A stretch of 61,054 bases of DNA, taken from a bacterium (GTDB taxonomy: Bacteria; CLD3; SB21). The stretch lies in the NCBI GenBank assembly GCA_019695335.1, contig JAIBAF010000015.1, positions 1 to 61,054 of the forward strand, in the 5' to 3' direction. Each line of letters opens with the position of its first letter. Within the stretch, counting starts at the first letter, position 1. The notes beneath the pieces were generated by a model that was not told where the DNA came from, did no database searches, and worked only from the letters and a program-made list of their open reading frames with translations. This document shows, in pieces, positions 1,214 to 13,826 of this stretch. The position numbers and the translations under genes are program-made.

Positions 1214-2563
1214 ATGAAACCGATACAACTGCTTTTCGTGTTGACTTTCTTGCTCACCGGAATGATTCAGTCGCAAACAATGAATGCACGTTTTTCCACG
1301 TCCGTATATTCGTGGGAAGATCAGTTTACCGACCAAACTGCCGCAAAAAGTTTTCGTGGTTATCAAACGGCGATGTTTCAGGTGAACGGATTGAAATGGG
1401 ATAACCTGTCATTCAATACTTATTTGCGTTCGACGTATGACTTCGGAACGGAAAGCAAGGATAATCCGGACTATCGCATTTACAATATGTATTTGCGGTG
1501 GAGAGCATCTGAAAAAGCTAAAAACAAACTGGATGTACAAGTCGGTCGTCAACAAGTTTTTACCGGTATGCGTAGCCCTACGATCGACGGAATTCGAGCA
1601 GACTATAGTTACGATCATAATTTTAATTTTATGGGTTATTTCGGAGCCCTTCCTCCGGCTGATGGAGGAGCATCTGCTTTGAAACCTTTCCAGCGAAGAA
1701 GTTGGGGAATAAAATTGTCGACTTCAAAATTCTGGGCCACCAATGCATCGATTACGTATTTTGATAAAAGCCGTGAAGGGCCGTTTTATCACACTGAAAA
1801 TTCTCTGGGTTTCGACAGTCTTGTTACAAGGCCTGACTTGAAAGAAAGGGTTGTTGGTTTCGATGCTAACAGAATGTTCTTCAAAAAAATTAATGTTTTT
1901 GCGAATGCACAATACAATGCGTTAGAAAAAAACATTCAACGCGCATCAGGTGATTTTCAATATACTCCGAATAGCGACTGGTTTGTTGCAGTACAATACA
2001 TGTATCGGCGACCTTTATTGCTTTATAATTCAATTTTTAGTGCATTTGATGACGTTCGGAGCAATCAAGAAGTATGGATGCGAGTTCATTACCGTATTAA
2101 TGAGTTGTGGGGTGTGAACGGTGAATACGCCAATGTGTTCTATAAAATGAAGGATGCATGGCGATATGGACTTGGAATTAGTTTCATGCGAACCGGGCTT
2201 CAATATCAACGCCGTATGGGTTATGGCGGAACGATGGATGCATTTACTGCTTCAGCGTATTATCCGGTCAATAGCCGTTTAAAGATCAACGGGGCATTGT
2301 CGTATACACGATTTGATTTAGCCGACGATATTACCGCGGGTATTGTAGACCCGACCACTGCATCACCGGACGTTTTAAGAAATACCAATACAGCCTGGTC
2401 GGCTGTTGCTCGGATTAATTATCAAATCCTGCGTTCGTTTAACATAGATGTTGAAGGACAAATTCTTTCGCAGAACCTTAAAAGCTCACCGGTTTTTGCC
2501 GGAAGCAAATACGATGTACGTTTCTTCGTAAGAGCTAACTACTGGATTTTTAAAAGAATCTAA
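1214..2563 (+). CDS. Outer-membrane beta-barrel (porin-like) protein
   Basis: The 449-residue protein has a signal peptide (about residues 1-20, ending near SQT) followed by alternating amphipathic strands rich in Tyr, Phe, Asn and Arg, such as YNMYLRW, VQVGRQQVF and FVRANYW. This is the pattern of a large outer-membrane barrel. The N-terminal motif VGRQQVF resembles porins that build a substrate or ion channel. An SD-like gaggt lies 5' of the ATG. The 12-heme cytochrome gene begins only 13 bases after the stop, so the two are probably cotranscribed. By analogy with porin-cytochrome conduits it may sheath a multiheme cytochrome, but it is shorter than MtrB and I see no MtrB-specific motif. 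It could also be an ordinary porin. Confidence 0.75.
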   Translation: MKPIQLLFVLTFLLTGMIQSQTMNARFSTSVYSWEDQFTDQTAAKSFRGYQTAMFQVNGLKWDNLSFNTYLRSTYDFGTESKDNPDYRIYNMYLRWRASEKAKNKLDVQVGRQQVFTGMRSPTIDGIRADYSYDHNFNFMGYFGALPPADGGASALKPFQRRSWGIKLSTSKFWATNASITYFDKSREGPFYHTENSLGFDSLVTRPDLKERVVGFDANRMFFKKINVFANAQYNALEKNIQRASGDFQYTPNSDWFVAVQYMYRRPLLLYNSIFSAFDDVRSNQEVWMRVHYRINELWGVNGEYANVFYKMKDAWRYGLGISFMRTGLQYQRRMGYGGTMDAFTASAYYPVNSRLKINGALSYTRFDLADDITAGIVDPTTASPDVLRNTNTAWSAVARINYQILRSFNIDVEGQILSQNLKSSPVFAGSKYDVRFFVRANYWIFKRI

Positions 2564-2576
2564 CCGGTGAAAAAAT

Positions 2577-3677
2577 ATGAAACCATTTAAATTCAAATCA
2601 TTGGTCATTTTGCCCTTTACGGCATTTGTATTGCTCTTATTGGGTCTTTCGGGGATCGGGCATATCACAAAGTCAGGGCTTTTTCTTCCGTCTCAAGTCG
2701 TGTCAAAACTGGTAGGAGGGCATAACTACCATGATGTTTATAAGGAAGAAGACCGTAGCAAATTGATCAAATTCAGCCATGCCTACCACAAAACCGAAGT
2801 CGGCGCTGAATGTGCTCAATGTCATAGCGGCGTTGAGAAAAGTACAAAATCCACTGACAATAACTTAGGTCTGATGGAAGATTGCTACGCCTGCCATGAT
2901 AAGAAAAAAACCGATTGTTCAGTATGCCATATGGAAAAATCGGAGCCTTATTCGGCATTCGCCAATCCTAAACGCGAATTGGTATTTTCTCACAAGCAAC
3001 ACATTGATGCCGGATCTAAATGTGAAGACTGTCATACCAATGTCGGAGAAAAGGGATACGTCAATACCAGTTTTCTTCCGACTATGGAGTCATGTATGGG
3101 ATGTCACAATGGCGTCAAAGCCAGTAATGATTGTCAAACATGCCACACGGACATTCGTTTTATTAAACCAGCCGATCACGTCGGCGATTTTATGAGAACG
3201 CATAAACAAATTGTTGCAACTCAGGGCGATGTAAATTGCGTTATGTGCCATTCTTCCGAAACATGCGAAGAATGTCATGAAGGCGGCAATCTCGAAAAAT
3301 TCAAAAAGCATAATGATTTTACAACCTCTAAAGGTGCTTCCGGTGTAAACGGCAATAATTCGATGATATTACAACGTTCACACTCATTGGATTATCTTTT
3401 TACGCATCGTTTTGATGCAAAAGCAAAAACTTCCGATTGCCAATCGTGTCACGAAACAGAGACTTTCTGCGTCCAATGTCATACTCAGAATCCAAAAGTA
3501 TCAAAACCTGCGGGCCATGATGCCGCGGGCTTTGTAAATTTCACGGCCGGATCCGGAGGAGGATTGCACGCATCATTGGCGAAAAAAGATATGGAAAATT
3601 GTGTTTCCTGTCACGAATTAGAAACCGGAGATGTTACGTGTTTGCAATGCCATACCAATGACGGGAAAAGACGATAA
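2577..3677 (+). CDS. Dodecaheme c-type cytochrome (c7/c3-type repeats)
   Basis: Twelve CXXCH motifs occur in 366 residues, from CAQCH at 79-83 to CLQCH near 354-358. The repeated FSHxxH element ahead of a CXXCH (FSHAYH, FSHKQH) is the hallmark of class III c7/c3 domains with bis-His hemes. A hydrophobic stretch at residues 8-28 without an obvious cleavage site suggests a signal anchor or an uncleaved leader. A 50-residue heme-free stretch (about 245-290) divides an eight-heme from a four-heme part. The gene lies 13 bases after the barrel gene and 30 before a monoheme lipoprotein. The likely role is a long-range electron wire at the cell envelope. No catalytic site is apparent. Its redox partner is inferred only from context. 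Confidence 0.88.
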   Translation: MKPFKFKSLVILPFTAFVLLLLGLSGIGHITKSGLFLPSQVVSKLVGGHNYHDVYKEEDRSKLIKFSHAYHKTEVGAECAQCHSGVEKSTKSTDNNLGLMEDCYACHDKKKTDCSVCHMEKSEPYSAFANPKRELVFSHKQHIDAGSKCEDCHTNVGEKGYVNTSFLPTMESCMGCHNGVKASNDCQTCHTDIRFIKPADHVGDFMRTHKQIVATQGDVNCVMCHSSETCEECHEGGNLEKFKKHNDFTTSKGASGVNGNNSMILQRSHSLDYLFTHRFDAKAKTSDCQSCHETETFCVQCHTQNPKVSKPAGHDAAGFVNFTAGSGGGLHASLAKKDMENCVSCHELETGDVTCLQCHTNDGKRR

Positions 3678-3707
3678 TATATAACCTACGACGTAAGGTT
3701 GAAATTT

Positions 3708-4088
3708 ATGAAAACTTATGCATTCTTAAGCGGTATTTTCTTAATGATAGCCATTCTGGCTGGTTGCAGCGATTACCGGAGTATTACTGCCAGCGCCCCG
3801 CCGCCACCGCCACCGCCGGATTATGTCACGTACGATGCTAATATTAAACCCATTCTTGACAGCAAATGTATTGGGTGTCACAACGCTACGGCTCCGCTCG
3901 CTAATTACAACCTGACAACCTATGCCGGTGTTTTGGGTAATGGAACTGATGGCGCACCAAATGCGATTGCCGGCGATGCTACCTGCCGATTGATCACTCA
4001 GATCCAAACCGGTCATGGCGGATTGACTCAGAATCAAATCGATCTGATTTATCAATGGGTGGTCGATGATATGTTAAGACAAAATTAA
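3708..4088 (+). CDS. Monoheme c-type cytochrome lipoprotein
   Basis: The predicted 126-residue protein has a lipoprotein signal (residues 1-20, lipobox LAGC), a seven-proline linker, and one heme site (CIGCH). The segment NIKPILDSKCIGCH matches the small cytochrome c domain found in planctomycete-type and other envelope cytochromes. A TTG nine bases upstream (3699) is also in frame, but the aagg motif directly abuts it; the same motif is well spaced for the ATG at 3708, so I chose the ATG. Its place between the dodecaheme and tetraheme genes suggests it is a lipid-anchored electron shuttle. The anchoring membrane cannot be told from sequence. Confidence 0.8.
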   Translation: MKTYAFLSGIFLMIAILAGCSDYRSITASAPPPPPPPDYVTYDANIKPILDSKCIGCHNATAPLANYNLTTYAGVLGNGTDGAPNAIAGDATCRLITQIQTGHGGLTQNQIDLIYQWVVDDMLRQN

Positions 4089-4114: not shown

Positions 4115-4705
4115 TTGAAGACTTCATTAGTGCTCATCGTCGTCGCGATGTTTCTTGTATCGTTTAATGTGCGTTATTACATTGAACCTTCAACGGAAGG
4201 CGACGAACAAGATCAGACTCAACGCGTATTTGTTGGCGCAGACAAATGTAAGCCTTGTCACATGTCTCCTAAAAAAGGCGCCCAATATAAAAAATGGAAA
4301 GAAGAAAAACACTCTCAAGCTTTTGCAGCCTTAGCTTCTGATAAAGCAAAAGAATATGGGGCCAAAGTCGGTGTGACCAATCCTCAGGAAGATGGTAAAT
4401 GTCTCAAATGCCATATTGATGGTTACGGTGTTGATGCTAAGTTTTTAGGCGAAAAATATAACAAAGCCGATGGTGTTGGCTGTGAATCGTGTCATGGTGC
4501 AGGCGGCGATTATTGGACCAAAGAAGTAATGACCGATATCTCTGCAGGTAAAACAGATGGCGCCACAGTCGGTTTAGTTAAACCCAATGAACAAACCTGC
4601 AAACGTTGTCACAATGAAGAATCGCCTACATTCACCGGATTTAATTTTGAGGAATTTTCAAAGAAAATTGCTCATCCCATGCCAAAAGATGCTACCGGAG
4701 GATAA
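4115..4705 (+). CDS. Tetraheme cytochrome c554-like protein
   Basis: The 196-residue protein starts at TTG, which sits 8 bases after a strong aaaggag SD; no better start exists. A signal peptide or anchor covers residues 3-18. Four CXXCH sites lie at 45-49, 96-100, 123-127 and 162-166, in the order and spacing of the cytochrome c554 family (GADKCKPCH, then CLKCH, CESCHG and CKRCH). Cytochrome c554-type proteins accept or pass electrons in the periplasm. The gene closes the first cytochrome unit and is followed by a terminator hairpin at 4776-4828. The partner is unknown; a quinol-oxidising gate from the downstream unit is an inference. Confidence 0.85.
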   Translation: MKTSLVLIVVAMFLVSFNVRYYIEPSTEGDEQDQTQRVFVGADKCKPCHMSPKKGAQYKKWKEEKHSQAFAALASDKAKEYGAKVGVTNPQEDGKCLKCHIDGYGVDAKFLGEKYNKADGVGCESCHGAGGDYWTKEVMTDISAGKTDGATVGLVKPNEQTCKRCHNEESPTFTGFNFEEFSKKIAHPMPKDATGG

Positions 4706-4968: not shown

Positions 4969-5298
4969 ATGAAAACGCTGCTATTGATTTTTGCCAGTGT
5001 CGGCGTGATTAGTCTTTTTGGGTCGAGTGGTTATACTCAAACCAAAGACGACGGAAAGACAATTTTTTTAGCGACCAAATGCCAACTCTGTCATTCCATT
5101 CAATCAGATGGAATTGAACGAAGCGGAAAAAAAGAGTACAGTGATCTATCTAAAATCGGCGCTAAAAGGACGGCTGATTGGATAATGAAGTATCTTAAGA
5201 AACAAGAAACGATCGATGGCGTTAAGCATATGAAAGTGCTGACCAATAACGATACGGAGATCGAAACTCTCGCCAAATGGCTTGCTTCACACAAGTGA
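4969..5298 (+). CDS. Small monoheme class I cytochrome c
   Basis: The 109-residue protein has a signal peptide (about 1-23, ending near YTQ), a single CQLCH heme site close to the mature N-terminus, and a C-terminal helix (TEIETLAKWLASH), the standard fold of a soluble class I cytochrome c. The Met in VKHMKVL is a plausible axial ligand. A strong SD (aaaggag) precedes the ATG. The gene is flanked by two terminators (4776-4828 and 5370-5408), so it appears to be its own transcript. It is the likely soluble periplasmic carrier between the inner-membrane gates and the envelope cytochromes, which is inferred from context. Confidence 0.85.
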   Translation: MKTLLLIFASVGVISLFGSSGYTQTKDDGKTIFLATKCQLCHSIQSDGIERSGKKEYSDLSKIGAKRTADWIMKYLKKQETIDGVKHMKVLTNNDTEIETLAKWLASHK

Positions 5299-5447: not shown

Positions 5448-7604
5448 ATGAAATGTTTAGTAAAATTATTAATGGCATGTTTCTGCATGATCTTGGGGGT
5501 ATCAGCTTTGTTTGGGCAGACCAATCAAACATGTTTAGAGTGCCACAGTGACAATTCATTGACGATGACAAAAAACAAAAAAGAAGTTTCTTTGTACGTC
5601 AATGACAAAATTTTGAGTCATTCCGCTCATTCGAAGGTCGCGTGCGTCGCGTGTCATACTGGATTCAATCCGGATGATATCCCGCACAAAGAAAAAATAA
5701 CACCGGTCAATTGCCTTTCATGCCACAACAAAGCGCTTTTGAAACATCAATTTCACATCAATATGGTCAGCGCGACCGGAACGGATGGGAAAAAAGACGT
5801 TTCCTGTAAAGGATGTCACGGGACACACGATGTTCAGCTTACGAAAACCGAGGGAGCAAAATTCAGTAAAGAAAATTTAGTCAATGCCTGCGGATCATGT
5901 CATACAGATGTAAAAGAAAAATTTATTCATTCAGCACATGGTGAGGCGTCAAGTAAAGGATCGAAAGACGCTCCCAATTGTTTGACCTGCCATCAAAGCA
6001 ATATCACCCGGGTTACGGCCGCAATGGATTCCGTTCAGCTTAAAATCGCACAGGAAAAAGTCTGTCTTTCATGCCATTTAAATAATCCCAATGTTGCCGA
6101 TAAAACGGTAAGAGGAACCAAGTTCATTGAATCGTACGAAAACAGCATTCACGGCTCACAACTCCGGGGCGGCAATGCCAAAGCGGCTAATTGCGTCAGC
6201 TGTCATGGCAGCCATGAAATGAACAAAAGTATTGTTGAAAGTTCACGCGTCAATAAACTTAACATACAATCGGTGTGCGCAAAATGTCACGAGAAAATCG
6301 AACATGAGTTCAGTACCAGCGTCCACGCAGCAGCCGTCGCGAAAGGTAACAAAGATGCGCCGGTTTGCACCGATTGTCATGGCGAGCATAACATTCTTAA
6401 ACATGATGACCCAAATTCTCCGGTGTCATCACGAAATTTATCACAACAGGTTTGCGGAACTTGTCACGCGTCCGTCAAATTATCACAGAAATACGGTTTA
6501 TCTACCGATCGATTTAAAACTTTTTCAGATAGTTTTCATGGATTAGCAGCCCGAGGTGGTTCGGTAGAAGCTGTCAACTGTGCAAGTTGCCATGGTGCGC
6601 ATAATATTAAACCTCCGGGCGATTCGACGTCAACGGTCAGCAAAGATAATCTGACGAAAACTTGCGGGAAATGCCATCCTGGAGCCAATAATCGGTTTAC
6701 AGTCGGTTCGGTGCATTCCAGTGTCGAAGAAAAAGAAGATCAACCGATATTGTATTGGATCGCCAACTTTTATATTTGGATGATCGTGGTTGTCGTTGGT
6801 GGAATGTTTCTACACAATTTCTTTGATTTTCTTAAGAAGATCCGAAGAAAATTAGCAATACAAAGAGGGGAAATTGAAGAAGAACATGTTGGGCATGCTT
6901 TGTATTTACGCATGACCGTCAATGAACGTATCCAGCATGCCACTTTGGCTATCAGTTTCATCCTGTTGGTTGTTACAGGATTCATGTTACGATATCCTGA
7001 AGCATGGTGGGTCGTAGCCATTAGAAATATGAGCGACCATGCATTCGAGTGGCGAAGCTGGATACATCGAATTGCCGGCGTTGTCATGGTTGTCGCCAGC
7101 CTGTACCACATCATTTATGTTTCATTTACTGTACGGGGCCGCCAACTGATAAAAGATCTTGTCCCGAAAACAAAAGATATGTTTGACGCTATTCATGTGA
7201 TGAAATATAATTTTGGGCTTCTCAAAGAAAAACCGAAATTTGAGCGCTTTGGTTATGTCGAAAAGGCTGAATACTGGGCATTGGTGTGGGGCACGATTGT
7301 CATGGCGTTAACGGGGGCAATCATGTGGTTTGAAAACGCATCGATGGGCATGTTTACAAAACTCGGCTGGGATATTTCACGGACCATCCATTTTTATGAA
7401 GCCATTCTGGCAACTTTAGCAATTATCGTCTGGCATTTTTATTTTGTTATCTTTAATCCGGACATGTACCCAATGAACCTGGCATGGTTGACCGGGAAAA
7501 TATCCGAAAAAGAAATGATGGACGAACATGCGCTTGAACTCGAGCAGGTTAAAAAACTGGAAGCTGATACTGAAAAACGTAACAAACCCGCGTCCGAAGA
7601 ATAA
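5448..7604 (+). CDS. Multiheme c (13 hemes) fused to a b-type cytochrome membrane domain, CbcL-like
   Basis: A signal peptide (1-23) leads into a periplasmic domain of about 410 residues with 13 CXXCH sites (first CLECH 29-33, last CGKCH 406-410) and many extra His residues suited to bis-His ligation (SIHG, SVHA, SFHG). Five membrane helices follow (about 433-460, 495-514, 538-558, 609-628, 649-669). His 497, 540, 554, 648 and 663 in or near them fit b-heme ligation as in the FdnI/HydC cytochrome b family. This c-plus-b layout is that of Geobacter CbcL, an inner-membrane menaquinol oxidase gate for low-potential extracellular respiration, although CbcL has fewer c-hemes. The gene starts 39 bases after a terminator and is followed 12 bases later by a larger paralogue. 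Quinol oxidation is inferred from the family. Confidence 0.85.
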   Translation: MKCLVKLLMACFCMILGVSALFGQTNQTCLECHSDNSLTMTKNKKEVSLYVNDKILSHSAHSKVACVACHTGFNPDDIPHKEKITPVNCLSCHNKALLKHQFHINMVSATGTDGKKDVSCKGCHGTHDVQLTKTEGAKFSKENLVNACGSCHTDVKEKFIHSAHGEASSKGSKDAPNCLTCHQSNITRVTAAMDSVQLKIAQEKVCLSCHLNNPNVADKTVRGTKFIESYENSIHGSQLRGGNAKAANCVSCHGSHEMNKSIVESSRVNKLNIQSVCAKCHEKIEHEFSTSVHAAAVAKGNKDAPVCTDCHGEHNILKHDDPNSPVSSRNLSQQVCGTCHASVKLSQKYGLSTDRFKTFSDSFHGLAARGGSVEAVNCASCHGAHNIKPPGDSTSTVSKDNLTKTCGKCHPGANNRFTVGSVHSSVEEKEDQPILYWIANFYIWMIVVVVGGMFLHNFFDFLKKIRRKLAIQRGEIEEEHVGHALYLRMTVNERIQHATLAISFILLVVTGFMLRYPEAWWVVAIRNMSDHAFEWRSWIHRIAGVVMVVASLYHIIYVSFTVRGRQLIKDLVPKTKDMFDAIHVMKYNFGLLKEKPKFERFGYVEKAEYWALVWGTIVMALTGAIMWFENASMGMFTKLGWDISRTIHFYEAILATLAIIVWHFYFVIFNPDMYPMNLAWLTGKISEKEMMDEHALELEQVKKLEADTEKRNKPASEE

Positions 7605-7616
7605 GAAGTTATTTTA

Positions 7617-10382
7617 ATGCAAATGAAAAAGATAATCACAATTTTGTTGTCTCTCGCGGCATCATCGTTGTTTGCTCAGACCAATAACGATTGCTTTGAC
7701 TGTCATGACGATGTGACTTTAACGGTCACGCGCGCTGGAAAAGAAGTATCGTTATACGTCAACAAAAAGAAATTTGCGTTTTCATCGCATAAAGATGTCC
7801 AATGCGTCGGATGTCATGCTGAATTGGCCGGTAAAGAATTGCCGCACGAAGAATTTGTATCAAAAGCGCAATGCGTTCCTTGTCATGCCAGCGCACAAAA
7901 ATTTTACGACGAAGGATTACATGGCACAGCTTTTAAACAAGGTGATCGTCTTGCACCGACGTGCATTACCTGTCATGGATCGCCGCATGAAATCCTTTCG
8001 AAAACGAACCCCATATCGCCTGTAACTGCAATCAAGATTCCTGAACTTTGCGGACGTTGTCATCACGAAGGATCGCCGGTTCAAATCAAATATGACATCC
8101 CGCAATCCAATATTCTGGAAAATTACTCCGAAAGTATTCACGGAGAAGGTTTATTGCATAAAGGATTAGCTGTTAGCGCTAATTGTGCTTCATGCCACAC
8201 ACCGCACCGGATTTTGCCTCATACGGATCCCCGTTCGTCAATTGCGCGGACTAATATTGCAAAAACCTGCACCAAATGTCATCAGGCCATCGAAGTCGTT
8301 CATCAAAAAGTCATCAAGGGCGAATTATGGGAAAAAGAAGCCAATGTTTTACCGGCGTGCGTCGATTGCCATCAACCCCATAAAGCCCGCAAAGTTTTTT
8401 ATGATCAAGGTATGGCCAATAGTGACTGCATGATCTGTCACGATAAAAAAGATCTAAAAGCCAAAGACGGACGTTCGATGTATGTTGATGACCATAAAAT
8501 GCTCGATTCACGTCACAACAAAACCGCCTGCAGTCAATGTCACGTAGGTGTAACGCCTATCAATAAAGAACGGCCATGTGAAACTCTGACGCAAAAAGTT
8601 GACTGTGCAACGTGCCATGCTCAAGTCGGCGATGATTACAAAATCAGCACGCACGGAAAACTGCACGCCAATAATGATCCAAATGCGCCGGTTTGTGCTG
8701 AATGTCACGGCACGCATTTCATTCAAGGTAAAAATAATCCGTTGTCTCCGATTTTTGCATCGAACATTCCTAACCTCTGTGCCCGGTGCCACCGCGAAGG
8801 CGAAAAAGCGGCTGTACGATATAAGGGTGAACAGCACGATATCATTGAAAATTATCAAGAGAGTATTCACGGTAAAGGCCTTATTAAAAGCGGCCTTTTG
8901 GTTACCGCCAAATGCACCGACTGCCATTCGGCTCATCGTGAATTACCTAGTTCAGATCCGATGTCTACGGTGCATTTCAGCAACATACCCGAAACATGCG
9001 GAAAGTGTCATAGTGGCGTAGAAGAAAAATTTAATCAAAGTATTCATTCTGCGGCCGTCTCCACATCCGATAAAAAACTACCTGTGTGCAATGATTGCCA
9101 TACGGCGCATACGATTCGCCGGACTGATGAAACCGGATTCATGCTCAATATTACAAATACGTGCGGTAAGTGTCATGAGGATATTACCAAAACGTATTTT
9201 GATACTTACCACGGCAAAGTTTCTCAGTTAGGTTACACGAAGACCGCAAAATGTTACGATTGCCACGGTTCGCATGATATTTTACCTATTTCCAATTCTA
9301 AATCGCATCTCAGCCGGGAAAATGTCGTTGCGACTTGCCAAAAATGCCATCCTGAAGCGAACCGTCGTTTTGCGGGCTATCTTACGCATGCAACCCACCA
9401 CGATCCGAATAAATATCCTTATCTGTTCTGGGTGTTTTGGGGAATGACCGGTCTTTTAGTTACAACGTTTTTCTTCAGCGGACTTCACACGCTATTATGG
9501 CTGCCTCGCGCATTGCAAATGCGGCACGTTCATAAAGAATATGTCGTCGATCCGAATGAAAAACAGTTTCAAAGGTTCACGCGCCTAAATCGTATTTTAC
9601 ATATTTTCATGATTGTCAGTTTTATTAGCCTCGCTCTGACCGGGCTTACGTTGAAATTTTCAAATACAGGCTGGGCCAAATTCTTGTCACAGCTTTTTGG
9701 AGGATTCGAATCTGCCGGATACATTCATCGTGTTGCTGCCGTAATCATGTTCGGTATTTTTGTTACACACATCACGGATTTGATTAAGAGCAAACGGAAA
9801 AATTTTAAGAGCTGGAAAGCGATGATTTTTAGTCCCGACTCGCTGATGTTTAATAAAAAAGACTTGAAAGATTTATGGGGTTCAATTAAGTGGTTTCTCG
9901 GGGTAGGCAAACGACCGGAGTACGGGCGGTGGACGTATTGGGAAAAATTTGATTACTTTGCCGTATTCTGGGGAATTGCCGTTATCGGATCGACGGGATT
10001 ATTACTCTGGTTTCCTGAATTATTTACAAACGCTCTTCCGGGATGGGTTATTAATATTGCCACGATCATTCACTCTGATGAAGCCCTTTTGGCTGTAGGT
10101 TTTATTTTTACGGTTCACTTTTTCAATACGCATCTTCGTCCTGAGAAATTTCCTATGGACCTTGTTGTATTTACCGGGCGTATGCCATTGGAAGAATTTA
10201 AACGCGACAAGCCCGCGGAATATGAAGCGTTGGTGGCCAGCGGTGATTTGGAGAAATATTTAGTGGAGCCTTATCCCGCAATAGTGATCAGAGTGATCCG
10301 TATTTTCGGCTGGACGGCGCTAACCATAGGCTTCAGCATTGTCATTTGGATTATTTACGCCATGCTATTTTCATATAAGTAG
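7617..10382 (+). CDS. Multiheme c (19 hemes) fused to a b-type cytochrome membrane domain, CbcL-like
   Basis: The 921-residue paralogue of the preceding gene has a signal peptide (1-20), a 580-residue c-domain with 19 CXXCH sites (CFDCH 26-30 to CQKCH near 574-578), then about six membrane helices from residue 601 with His residues in LHIFMIV, YIHRVAAV, VTHITDL and the IHSDEALL...VHF segment as b-heme ligand candidates. Residues 86-225 and 330-470 are a visible internal repeat (both contain ENYxESIHGxGL and a following CHxxHR), which accounts for the extra hemes. The start could also be the ATG at 7623; 7617 has the better-spaced aagaag. The 12-base gap to the upstream gene implies cotranscription. 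Expected function: menaquinol-linked electron export across the inner membrane. Confidence 0.85.
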   Translation: MQMKKIITILLSLAASSLFAQTNNDCFDCHDDVTLTVTRAGKEVSLYVNKKKFAFSSHKDVQCVGCHAELAGKELPHEEFVSKAQCVPCHASAQKFYDEGLHGTAFKQGDRLAPTCITCHGSPHEILSKTNPISPVTAIKIPELCGRCHHEGSPVQIKYDIPQSNILENYSESIHGEGLLHKGLAVSANCASCHTPHRILPHTDPRSSIARTNIAKTCTKCHQAIEVVHQKVIKGELWEKEANVLPACVDCHQPHKARKVFYDQGMANSDCMICHDKKDLKAKDGRSMYVDDHKMLDSRHNKTACSQCHVGVTPINKERPCETLTQKVDCATCHAQVGDDYKISTHGKLHANNDPNAPVCAECHGTHFIQGKNNPLSPIFASNIPNLCARCHREGEKAAVRYKGEQHDIIENYQESIHGKGLIKSGLLVTAKCTDCHSAHRELPSSDPMSTVHFSNIPETCGKCHSGVEEKFNQSIHSAAVSTSDKKLPVCNDCHTAHTIRRTDETGFMLNITNTCGKCHEDITKTYFDTYHGKVSQLGYTKTAKCYDCHGSHDILPISNSKSHLSRENVVATCQKCHPEANRRFAGYLTHATHHDPNKYPYLFWVFWGMTGLLVTTFFFSGLHTLLWLPRALQMRHVHKEYVVDPNEKQFQRFTRLNRILHIFMIVSFISLALTGLTLKFSNTGWAKFLSQLFGGFESAGYIHRVAAVIMFGIFVTHITDLIKSKRKNFKSWKAMIFSPDSLMFNKKDLKDLWGSIKWFLGVGKRPEYGRWTYWEKFDYFAVFWGIAVIGSTGLLLWFPELFTNALPGWVINIATIIHSDEALLAVGFIFTVHFFNTHLRPEKFPMDLVVFTGRMPLEEFKRDKPAEYEALVASGDLEKYLVEPYPAIVIRVIRIFGWTALTIGFSIVIWIIYAMLFSYK

Positions 10383-11978: not shown

Positions 11979-13028
11979 TTAAATTGCCTTTTCGAAATAT
12001 TTTCTTTTAAGCCACAACGATACATCGACTAATAGTATCAGGACCGGAACTTCAACTAAAGGCCCTATCACTGTGGCAAATGCCGCCTGCGAATTGATTC
12101 CAAATACTGCTACAGCCACCGCTATTGCTAACTCAAAATCGTTACTGCCCGCCGTAAATGCTACCGTCGTTGATTTCTCGTAGGAATTTCCCATTTTTTT
12201 TGCTGCGTAAAAAGTCGTAAAAAACATAACGGCAAAATATAATGTGTATGGTATCGCAACGCGCAGAACGTCCGTGGGCAATTCAACAATTTTATCCCCT
12301 TTGAGTGAAAACATTACAAAAATAGTAAATAGCAAAGCGAAGGGCGTGAGTGGGGAAATTTTCGGGACAAATTTTTCGTGGTACCAGATTTTATCTCTGA
12401 ATTGCAGTAACAAAATTCTTGTCAAAAGCCCGGCGCCGAAAGGAATTCCAAGATAGATCAAAACGGTTACAGCGATTTCACTGATCGAAACCTGGACTAA
12501 AGTTCCGTGCAAACCGAAAACCGGTGGAAGGATCGTGATAAAAACATATGCATAAACAGAATACAAAAAGACTTGAAACAGTGCGTTAAAAGCAACTAAT
12601 CCGGCCGCTAATTCAGGATCTCCTTTTGCGAGATCGTTCCACACCAAAACCATGGCAATGCAACGGGCAAGACCAACCAATATCACGCCAATCATCAAAT
12701 CGGGTTTGTCGGATAAAAGCAGTATAGCAAAGAGGAACATGATAAAAGGCCCGATGACCCAATTTTGAACGAGCGATAGCAGAAGTAATCTAACATTTCG
12801 AAAAACAATGGGCAATTCTTCATACTTCACCTTCGCTAATGGCGGATACATCATAAGAATAAGGCCAATGGCGATCGGAATATTCGTCATGCCTGAACTG
12901 AGAGAATCCCAAAAGCCGGCCATGCCCGGTAAAAAATAACCGGCAATCACACCGAAGAACATAATCAGGAAAATCCACGCGGTGAGATAACGGTCAAAAA
13001 AGGAAAGTTGTTTGCTGACGGCGTCCAT
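11979..13028 (-). CDS. acr3: Arsenite efflux permease, ACR3 family
   Basis: The 349-residue protein has about ten hydrophobic helices and ACR3 signatures: the [12 protein letters not shown] segment with the conserved Cys 123 needed for arsenite transport, the following NDLAKGDPE, and the later [16 protein letters not shown] helix. ACR3 exports arsenite using the membrane potential. The ATG overlaps the arsC stop codon by one base (TAATG), which suggests translational coupling, so the order of transcription is arsR-arsC-acr3. The gene ends 28 bases from the convergent cytochrome cluster. Length and motifs are normal for the family. Confidence 0.93.
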
Positions 13029-13444
13029 TATATTTTTAATTTGAGGTAGAAATCATAAAAACGTTCGTTGATTTCGTCGCGTATTCTTCGAAATTCACCC
13101 AATATAAATTCCTCTGTTCCGCTGGCTTCGGCCGGGTCATCAAAACCGATATGCAGACGGTGATTGACTTTTCCGGTAAAAATCGGGCAGTTTTCTTGCG
13201 CATGCCCACATACGGTGATAACATAGTCGAAAGCTTTGTTAATAAATTCATCCGTGTTTTTCGGGTAGTTTTTACTGAGATCGATGCCAACTTCCGACAT
13301 CACTTGAATTGCTTTCGGATGAACACGTTCGGAAGGTCTTGTTCCTGCAGAATAAACTTCCAATCGCGAATCAAACGATTTTAGAAATCCTTCAGCGATC
13401 TGACTACGGCATGAATTACCGGTACAAAGTATTAAAATTTTCAT
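13028..13444 (-). CDS. arsC: Arsenate reductase, thioredoxin-coupled LMW-phosphatase type
   Basis: The 138-residue protein carries the low-molecular-weight phosphatase P-loop CTGNSCRS (Cys 7, Arg 13) and a later Cys pair in VCGHAQENC (Cys 79 and 86), at the seven-residue spacing of the redox cysteines of the pI258-type enzyme. It reduces arsenate to arsenite, which Acr3 then exports, with thioredoxin regenerating the enzyme. A GTG at 13450 is in frame, but the ATG at 13444 gives the usual short N-terminus (MKILILC). It overlaps acr3 by one base and lies 28 bases downstream of arsR, with a palindrome in the gap. Confidence 0.93.
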
Positions 13445-13454
13445 AATCACTCAT

Positions 13455-13474
13455 ATTTCGTTAAATAGCGAATT
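13455..13474. promoter_or_regulatory. Second ArsR-type operator candidate, between arsR and arsC
   Basis: ATTTCG-N8-CGAATT, identical at 16 of 20 positions to the palindrome at the arsR start and with the same 8-base spacing. It overlaps the arsR stop codon and lies 10 bases upstream of the arsC ATG. It may give arsC-acr3 an additional regulated promoter. Confidence 0.5.
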
Positions 13475-13826
13475 ATTTACACAGTAAAGCGCGATCGACT
13501 TTGTTAATGGTAGCCCGGTCTTTTTTTATCAAATCAATGTCTTCTAACCAAATGTGCATCATTCCGATCAATGATGCTAATGCAGGGTCGGACGGTTTTC
13601 TATTGATAGAATAATTGACCCACTTTCCGTCTTTTTCTTCCAAAATATATCCGGATTCCTTCAAAATGCTCAAATGTTTAGATACCGTGGAAGGCGCGAG
13701 TTGCAATACTTCGGTAATTTCACAGACACACAGGTCTTTCATCTGCAACATTTTCAGAATTCTAAGCCGATTAGGGTCGGATACGGCTTTAAAAAGTTTG
13801 GCTTTATCAATCAGCATAAAAATCAT
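13473..13826 (-). CDS. arsR: ArsR/SmtB-family arsenic-responsive repressor
   Basis: The 117-residue winged-helix protein has the ArsR metalloid-binding motif DLCVCEIT (Cys 33 and 35), the KAVSDPNRLRIL N-terminal helix and the recognition segment LAPSTVSKHLSILKESG, followed by the beta-wing (EEKDGKWVNYSI). In this family arsenite binding releases the repressor from its operator. The first ATG (13826) lies inside the palindrome at 13825-13844; an in-frame ATG at 13817 would place the operator immediately upstream of the gene. Neither has a clear SD, so the start is uncertain by three residues. It heads the arsR-arsC-acr3 operon. Confidence 0.92.
   Translation of the reverse strand: MIFMLIDKAKLFKAVSDPNRLRILKMLQMKDLCVCEITEVLQLAPSTVSKHLSILKESGYILEEKDGKWVNYSINRKPSDPALASLIGMMHIWLEDIDLIKKDRATINKVDRALLCK

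Follow-up and report, generated by a model that had tools for sequence, protein, structure and literature searches.

A Probable OmbB-Type Porin–Cytochrome Conduit Encoded Beside ImcH- and CbcL-Like Proteins in a Little-Studied Bacterial Lineage

Does a gene for an outer-membrane barrel, followed after 13 bp by a gene for a dodecaheme cytochrome, encode an electron conduit across the outer membrane, and would such a conduit be of a new kind? The pair lies near the start of a 61,054-nucleotide stretch of contig JAIBAF010000015.1 (assembly GCA_019695335.1; lineage CLD3; SB21), called the window here. An original prediction, drawn from the DNA letters, had described a 449-residue barrel, a 13-base gap, a 12-heme protein, and then a heme lipoprotein, with coordinates and counts that are right, and had read the pair as a porin–cytochrome conduit, possibly of a distinct type. 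Homology and gene order lend the conduit reading good support. Very probably, the locus encodes an OmbB-type porin–cytochrome conduit that moves respiratory electrons outward across the outer membrane. What is new is a divergent OmbB-type conduit in a poorly known lineage; the kind of conduit itself is already known. The locus brings a little-studied lineage into the set that carries OmbB-type conduits and reveals no new way of moving electrons.

Results

Locus Organization

Within about 12 kb lie the conduit genes, those for carriers, and those for three candidate quinol oxidases (Table 1), a compact target for testing a whole electron route. Because CbcL-like, 19-heme/b561, and ImcH homologues follow downstream of the conduit, the locus is predicted from its gene content to be a nearly complete extracellular respiration pathway. 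Next to the barrel–cytochrome pair, the one-heme small lipoprotein is probably an accessory electron carrier, and the tetraheme c554-type protein is likely a periplasmic carrier.

Table 1. Features of the predicted conduit locus, in window coordinates
Feature	Position	Strand	Basis
Putative surface cytochrome, C-terminal 347 aa	1..1044	+	Ortholog alignment; OmcB-position lipoprotein
OmbB-family outer-membrane barrel (predicted), 449 aa	1214..2563	+	OmbB-type HMM, hhalign
Dodecaheme cytochrome, 366 aa, predicted periplasmic	2577..3677	+	12 CXXCH; Pfam Cytochrome_C7; OmaB-type profile
One-heme small lipoprotein	3699..4088	+	CIGCH, lipobox-like start ILAGC; same position in relatives
Tetraheme c554-type cytochrome, exported	4115..4705	+	Pfam Cytochrome_C554 E 3.4e-18; 4 CXXCH
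Monoheme class I cytochrome c, exported	4969..5298	+	Pfam Cytochrom_C E 1.1e-6
CbcL/MtrH/MtoC-like protein, 13 c-hemes + b561/FdnI-like membrane domain	5448..7604	+	Pfam Ni_hydr_CYTB, Cytochrome_C7
Second c-heme/b561 fusion, 19 c-hemes + membrane domain	7617..10382	+	Pfam; CXXCH count; C-terminal hydrophobic segments
ImcH homologue, 497 aa	10457..11950	+	Identity, motif and TM layout

The cytochrome cluster is followed immediately by an arsenic-type cassette (11979–13826, minus strand). By motif recognition, it comprises an ArsR-like regulator, a protein resembling low-molecular-weight phosphatases/arsenate reductases, and an ACR3-like membrane protein.

Family Membership of the Barrel

The barrel carries an export signal at its N terminus and no CXXCH motif. 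One group of homologues combines a TetR-like regulator, a 403–405-aa barrel, a 223–242-aa octaheme protein, and a multiheme lipoprotein of the GCGSSSKEG type, and this layout is present in many related genomes, sometimes as tandem copies. We take the group to be ombB–omaB–omcB on the strength of its anatomy, the known Geobacter clusters, and published descriptions (PMC4589669, PMC4245776). Reference OmbB and OmaB sequences were identified by length, heme count, gene order, and lipoprotein start; the reference set (L047–L066) shows the orfR (TetR-like)–ombB–omaB–omcB layout in part or whole.

A profile built from ten 403–405-aa Geobacteraceae-type barrels recognized the window barrel at 82 bits (E 1.9e-27, calculated for a single target rather than a database), and hhalign aligned the two with 99.1% probability over 319 columns at about 24% identity. 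Run against the whole genome, the same profile returned the barrel at E 4.3e-17 and a runner-up at E 0.157; the barrel is its sole significant match there. Motifs are common to the family, among them GRQ with a conserved (I/L)DG after it. A crude alternation scan counted about 19–22 strand-like stretches in the window barrel and the OmbB-type barrels alike, some of these stretches being false and one lying inside the signal peptide; an AlphaFold model of the barrel from three sequences reached a mean pLDDT of 28, too low for use. Profile similarity assigns the barrel to the OmbB/Pcc porin superfamily.

Kinship with MtrB is rejected on the profile tests. A control profile of six MtrB-type barrels gave no HMM match to the window barrel and an hhalign probability of 6%, and a PF11854 search of the genome found nothing. 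The MtrB-type barrels fetched for comparison measure about 700–830 aa, most with decaheme partners. The original prediction noted that the 449-aa barrel is smaller than MtrB, but this is not distinctive, since Geobacteraceae-type OmbB members have only 403–405 aa. Its suggestion of a distinct conduit type is not supported, given the barrel's place in the OmbB/Pcc superfamily and the earlier publication of pairs joining a barrel to a 12–14-heme cytochrome (PMC4245776). That the conduit might still be of a type unrelated to known porin–cytochrome families is a reading we hold to be very improbable: the identity to OmbB-type barrels is indeed low, no PDB relative was found by sequence, and no NCBIfam model matched the barrel, but similarity is significant at the profile level both to OmbB-type barrels and to OmaB-type cytochromes, the GRQ...IDG motifs are held in common, and a generic barrel similarity, which would be the other way to account for the profile matches, is seen neither with MtrB-type barrels nor elsewhere in the genome.

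A Pfam LptD match (barrel residues 179–299, E 5.7e-7, above the family cut-off) would suit another alternative, in which the barrel is a solute porin or an LptD-like LPS transporter standing beside cytochrome genes by chance. The match is partial and involves the end of the LptD profile alone, whereas the OmbB-type profile is a much better fit and covers most of the barrel's length; the cytochrome neighbor, moreover, is kept across lineages. Because neither of the two orthologs tested (50% and 59% identical) matches LptD, we treat the match as spurious, and a transporter or solute porin placed here by chance strikes us as extremely improbable.

Modular Structure of the Dodecaheme Cytochrome

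The periplasmic partner contains exactly 12 CXXCH motifs in its 366 residues. Residues 199–361 align with the OmaB-type octaheme profile (hhalign 99.1%, E 6.5e-19, 33% identity), and in a wider alignment with 8–14-heme homologues, hemes 6–12 fall on OmaB hemes 1–7; the last six or seven hemes make up the OmaB-matching part. Toward the N terminus, hemes 1–3 (residues 79, 103, and 114) and hemes 4–6 (residues 149, 173, and 186) form two triplets of near-equal spacing, both in the region matched by Cytochrome_C7. Read from alignment and heme spacing, the protein consists of two added c7-like triheme modules (residues 79–190) and an OmaB-like core (about 199–361). Homologues with 14 hemes (G336, G062) show like spacing plus a terminal pair. 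The periplasmic partner is modular: putting zero or two c7-like triheme units ahead of an OmaB-like core produces much of the 8- to 14-heme range observed among lineages. Matches of the HmcA, DsrJ, and DmsE types were rejected as lying far under family cut-offs; they reflect shared c7/c3-type heme motifs.

We also considered that the N-terminal hydrophobic segment might be kept as an inner-membrane anchor, giving one tethered wire from the inner membrane towards the barrel, and give this arrangement little credence. Were it true, the two c7-like modules would replace separate PpcA-type shuttles.

Putative Surface Cytochrome Across a Contig Break

The window opens inside the surface cytochrome gene, and the original prediction had missed that positions 1–1044 are the end of this operon member. 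When the genome was searched with the N-terminal part of an ortholog, the missing 5′ piece emerged on another contig (C24:46541–47008). The end of C24 and the start of the window contig (C15) share an exact 127-bp overlap inside the gene, which makes the two contigs neighbors and the interruption a break of the assembly rather than of the gene.

The joined protein has about 467 aa and six hemes (five CXXCH and one CX4CH); it begins with a lipobox (VSSC), and a collagen-like stretch (GPRGPAG) comes next. In three relatives in which the gene is whole (G003, G004, and G005), the upstream lipoprotein has about 450 aa, five CXXCH motifs, and a conserved CX4CH, and a collagen-like stretch again follows the lipobox. 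We infer that the six-heme lipoprotein sits at the cell surface. With it recovered, the operon holds the three Pcc parts: surface cytochrome, barrel, and periplasmic cytochrome. A PDB search with the surface cytochrome gave nothing meaningful, its coronavirus protease matches (E > 0.1) being due to chance.

Conservation of the Barrel–Cytochrome Pair

Gene order is kept in four further genomes of the same family, at 50–59% identity for the barrel and 55–64% for the cytochrome, which argues that the pairing is not due to chance. In five genomes of the family, the genes for the surface lipoprotein cytochrome, the barrel, and the periplasmic cytochrome stand side by side, in pcc-like fashion. A contig scan found only two close relatives. 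Barrel homologues were not found in one genome of the same genus (G001, 91% complete) or one of the same family (G002, 85% complete), so either some members of the family do without the conduit or gaps hid it there.

Farther afield, a five-sequence barrel profile, made from the window barrel plus its four orthologs, retrieved homologues in many other lineages; three weak matches (L043, L045, and L046) were left out for odd frames or a position at a contig edge. A protein with 5–14 CXXCH motifs lies directly 3′ of the barrel homologue, on the same strand, at 10 of 10 distant loci with a readable neighborhood, and at most of these ten a multiheme lipoprotein adjoins as well. Trees of the barrel and the cytochrome have their main groups in common, as expected if the pair was inherited together, though a number of branches are long, with poor support.

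The relatives differ in detail around this core. At two of their loci (L008 1910–4898, minus strand; L010 12392–13923, plus strand), genes for a Rieske-like protein and a cytochrome b, named by eye, follow the ImcH homologue, and the fully visible L008 carries an 11-heme protein there as well; in the window, the arsenic-type cassette occupies the corresponding place. The small lipoprotein has CATTCH (CX3CH) in L009 (12049–12447) and L008 (12927–13325) versus CIGCH in the window, and its copy in G003 (L007 11709–12125) has no CXXCH.

Predicted Inner-Membrane Supply Side

ImcH is defined by a length of about 495–519 aa, six CX2CH motifs, and three TM segments with a CX3CH next to them (PMC6295460). 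The last protein of the cytochrome cluster, a seven-heme, NapC/NirT-related membrane protein, has three N-terminal TM segments, a CX3CH (CGEICH at 130) by TM3, and six CXXCH motifs. Five Geobacteraceae-type genomes each encode one protein that is 45–46% identical to it over the full length. All published sequence features are present, and on these grounds it is a clear ImcH homologue.

The 13-heme protein is 30–32% identical over about 530 aa to Geobacteraceae-type proteins of 623–639 aa. A simple hydropathy scan gave five segments besides the signal peptide, compared with the six TM segments of a CbcL-type domain. These features are consistent with a CbcL-like inner-membrane quinol oxidase, which would have in common with CbcL the layout of c-hemes joined to a b561 domain. 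Its neighbor, of 921 aa, fuses 19 c-heme motifs to a b561-type membrane domain. CbcL has nine hemes, as against 13 and 19 in the two CbcL-like proteins here; across the CbcL-type family, counts range from 3 to 23 (PMC6295460). Both the ImcH and the CbcL homologues are encoded beside the conduit in the window.

Proposed Electron Route and Its Direction

Electrons would leave the quinol pool through the ImcH- and CbcL-like inner-membrane cytochromes, and small periplasmic cytochromes would relay them to the dodecaheme protein. Its OmaB-like heme core, presumably held inside the barrel as part of a single complex, would carry them across the outer membrane to the six-heme surface lipoprotein, which could pass them to an external acceptor such as a metal oxide, a humic compound, an electrode, or a partner cell.

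The same components might run inward, taking electrons from an extracellular donor, for instance Fe(II) or a partner cell, and feeding them to the quinone pool. Barrel–cytochrome conduits of either direction are known from the literature, and CbcL/MtrH/MtoC homologues occur in Fe(III) reducers and Fe(II) oxidizers (PMC6295460). Against inward flow stands the ImcH homologue: to date, reports of ImcH come exclusively from Fe(III) reducers (PMC6295460), and this makes the inward direction less likely. The locus also has a dedicated surface lipoprotein cytochrome, which some mtr clusters for Fe(II) oxidation lack (PMC4245776). We therefore regard inward flow as unlikely, though still worth weighing, and favor outward transfer.

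Comparison with Known Systems

The closest parallel drawn here is Geobacter OmbB–OmaB–OmcB. Both systems have the barrel gene followed by that of the periplasmic cytochrome, predicted homologous barrels (the window's being about 45 aa longer), a homologous six- to seven-heme core in the periplasmic cytochrome, and a multiheme surface lipoprotein in the cluster. They differ in that the window cytochrome has two extra N-terminal c7-like triheme modules and is without OmaB's last heme; in that OmcB has 12 hemes and is encoded downstream, whereas the window surface cytochrome has 6 hemes and a collagen-like stretch and is encoded upstream; and in that no orfR-like regulator was seen beside the window conduit.

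Shewanella MtrCAB embodies the same principle of a barrel, a periplasmic multiheme wire, and a surface cytochrome, but the window barrel is not homologous to MtrB by any profile test. Outside the Proteobacteria, OmbB-like conduits have been reported from Ignavibacteria (PMC7399161, PMC4245776), which, compared by description, likewise combine an OmbB-like porin with multiheme cytochromes. Two-gene Pcc clusters of a barrel and a 12- or 14-heme cytochrome were described from Anaeromyxobacter and Kuenenia in 2014 (PMC4245776); their cytochromes, again compared by description, have 338–344 aa, similar to the 366 aa here. An outer-membrane multiheme lipoprotein cytochrome is present in most, not all, Pcc clusters, and the window, in contrast to the two-gene clusters of Anaeromyxobacter and Kuenenia, encodes a predicted one.
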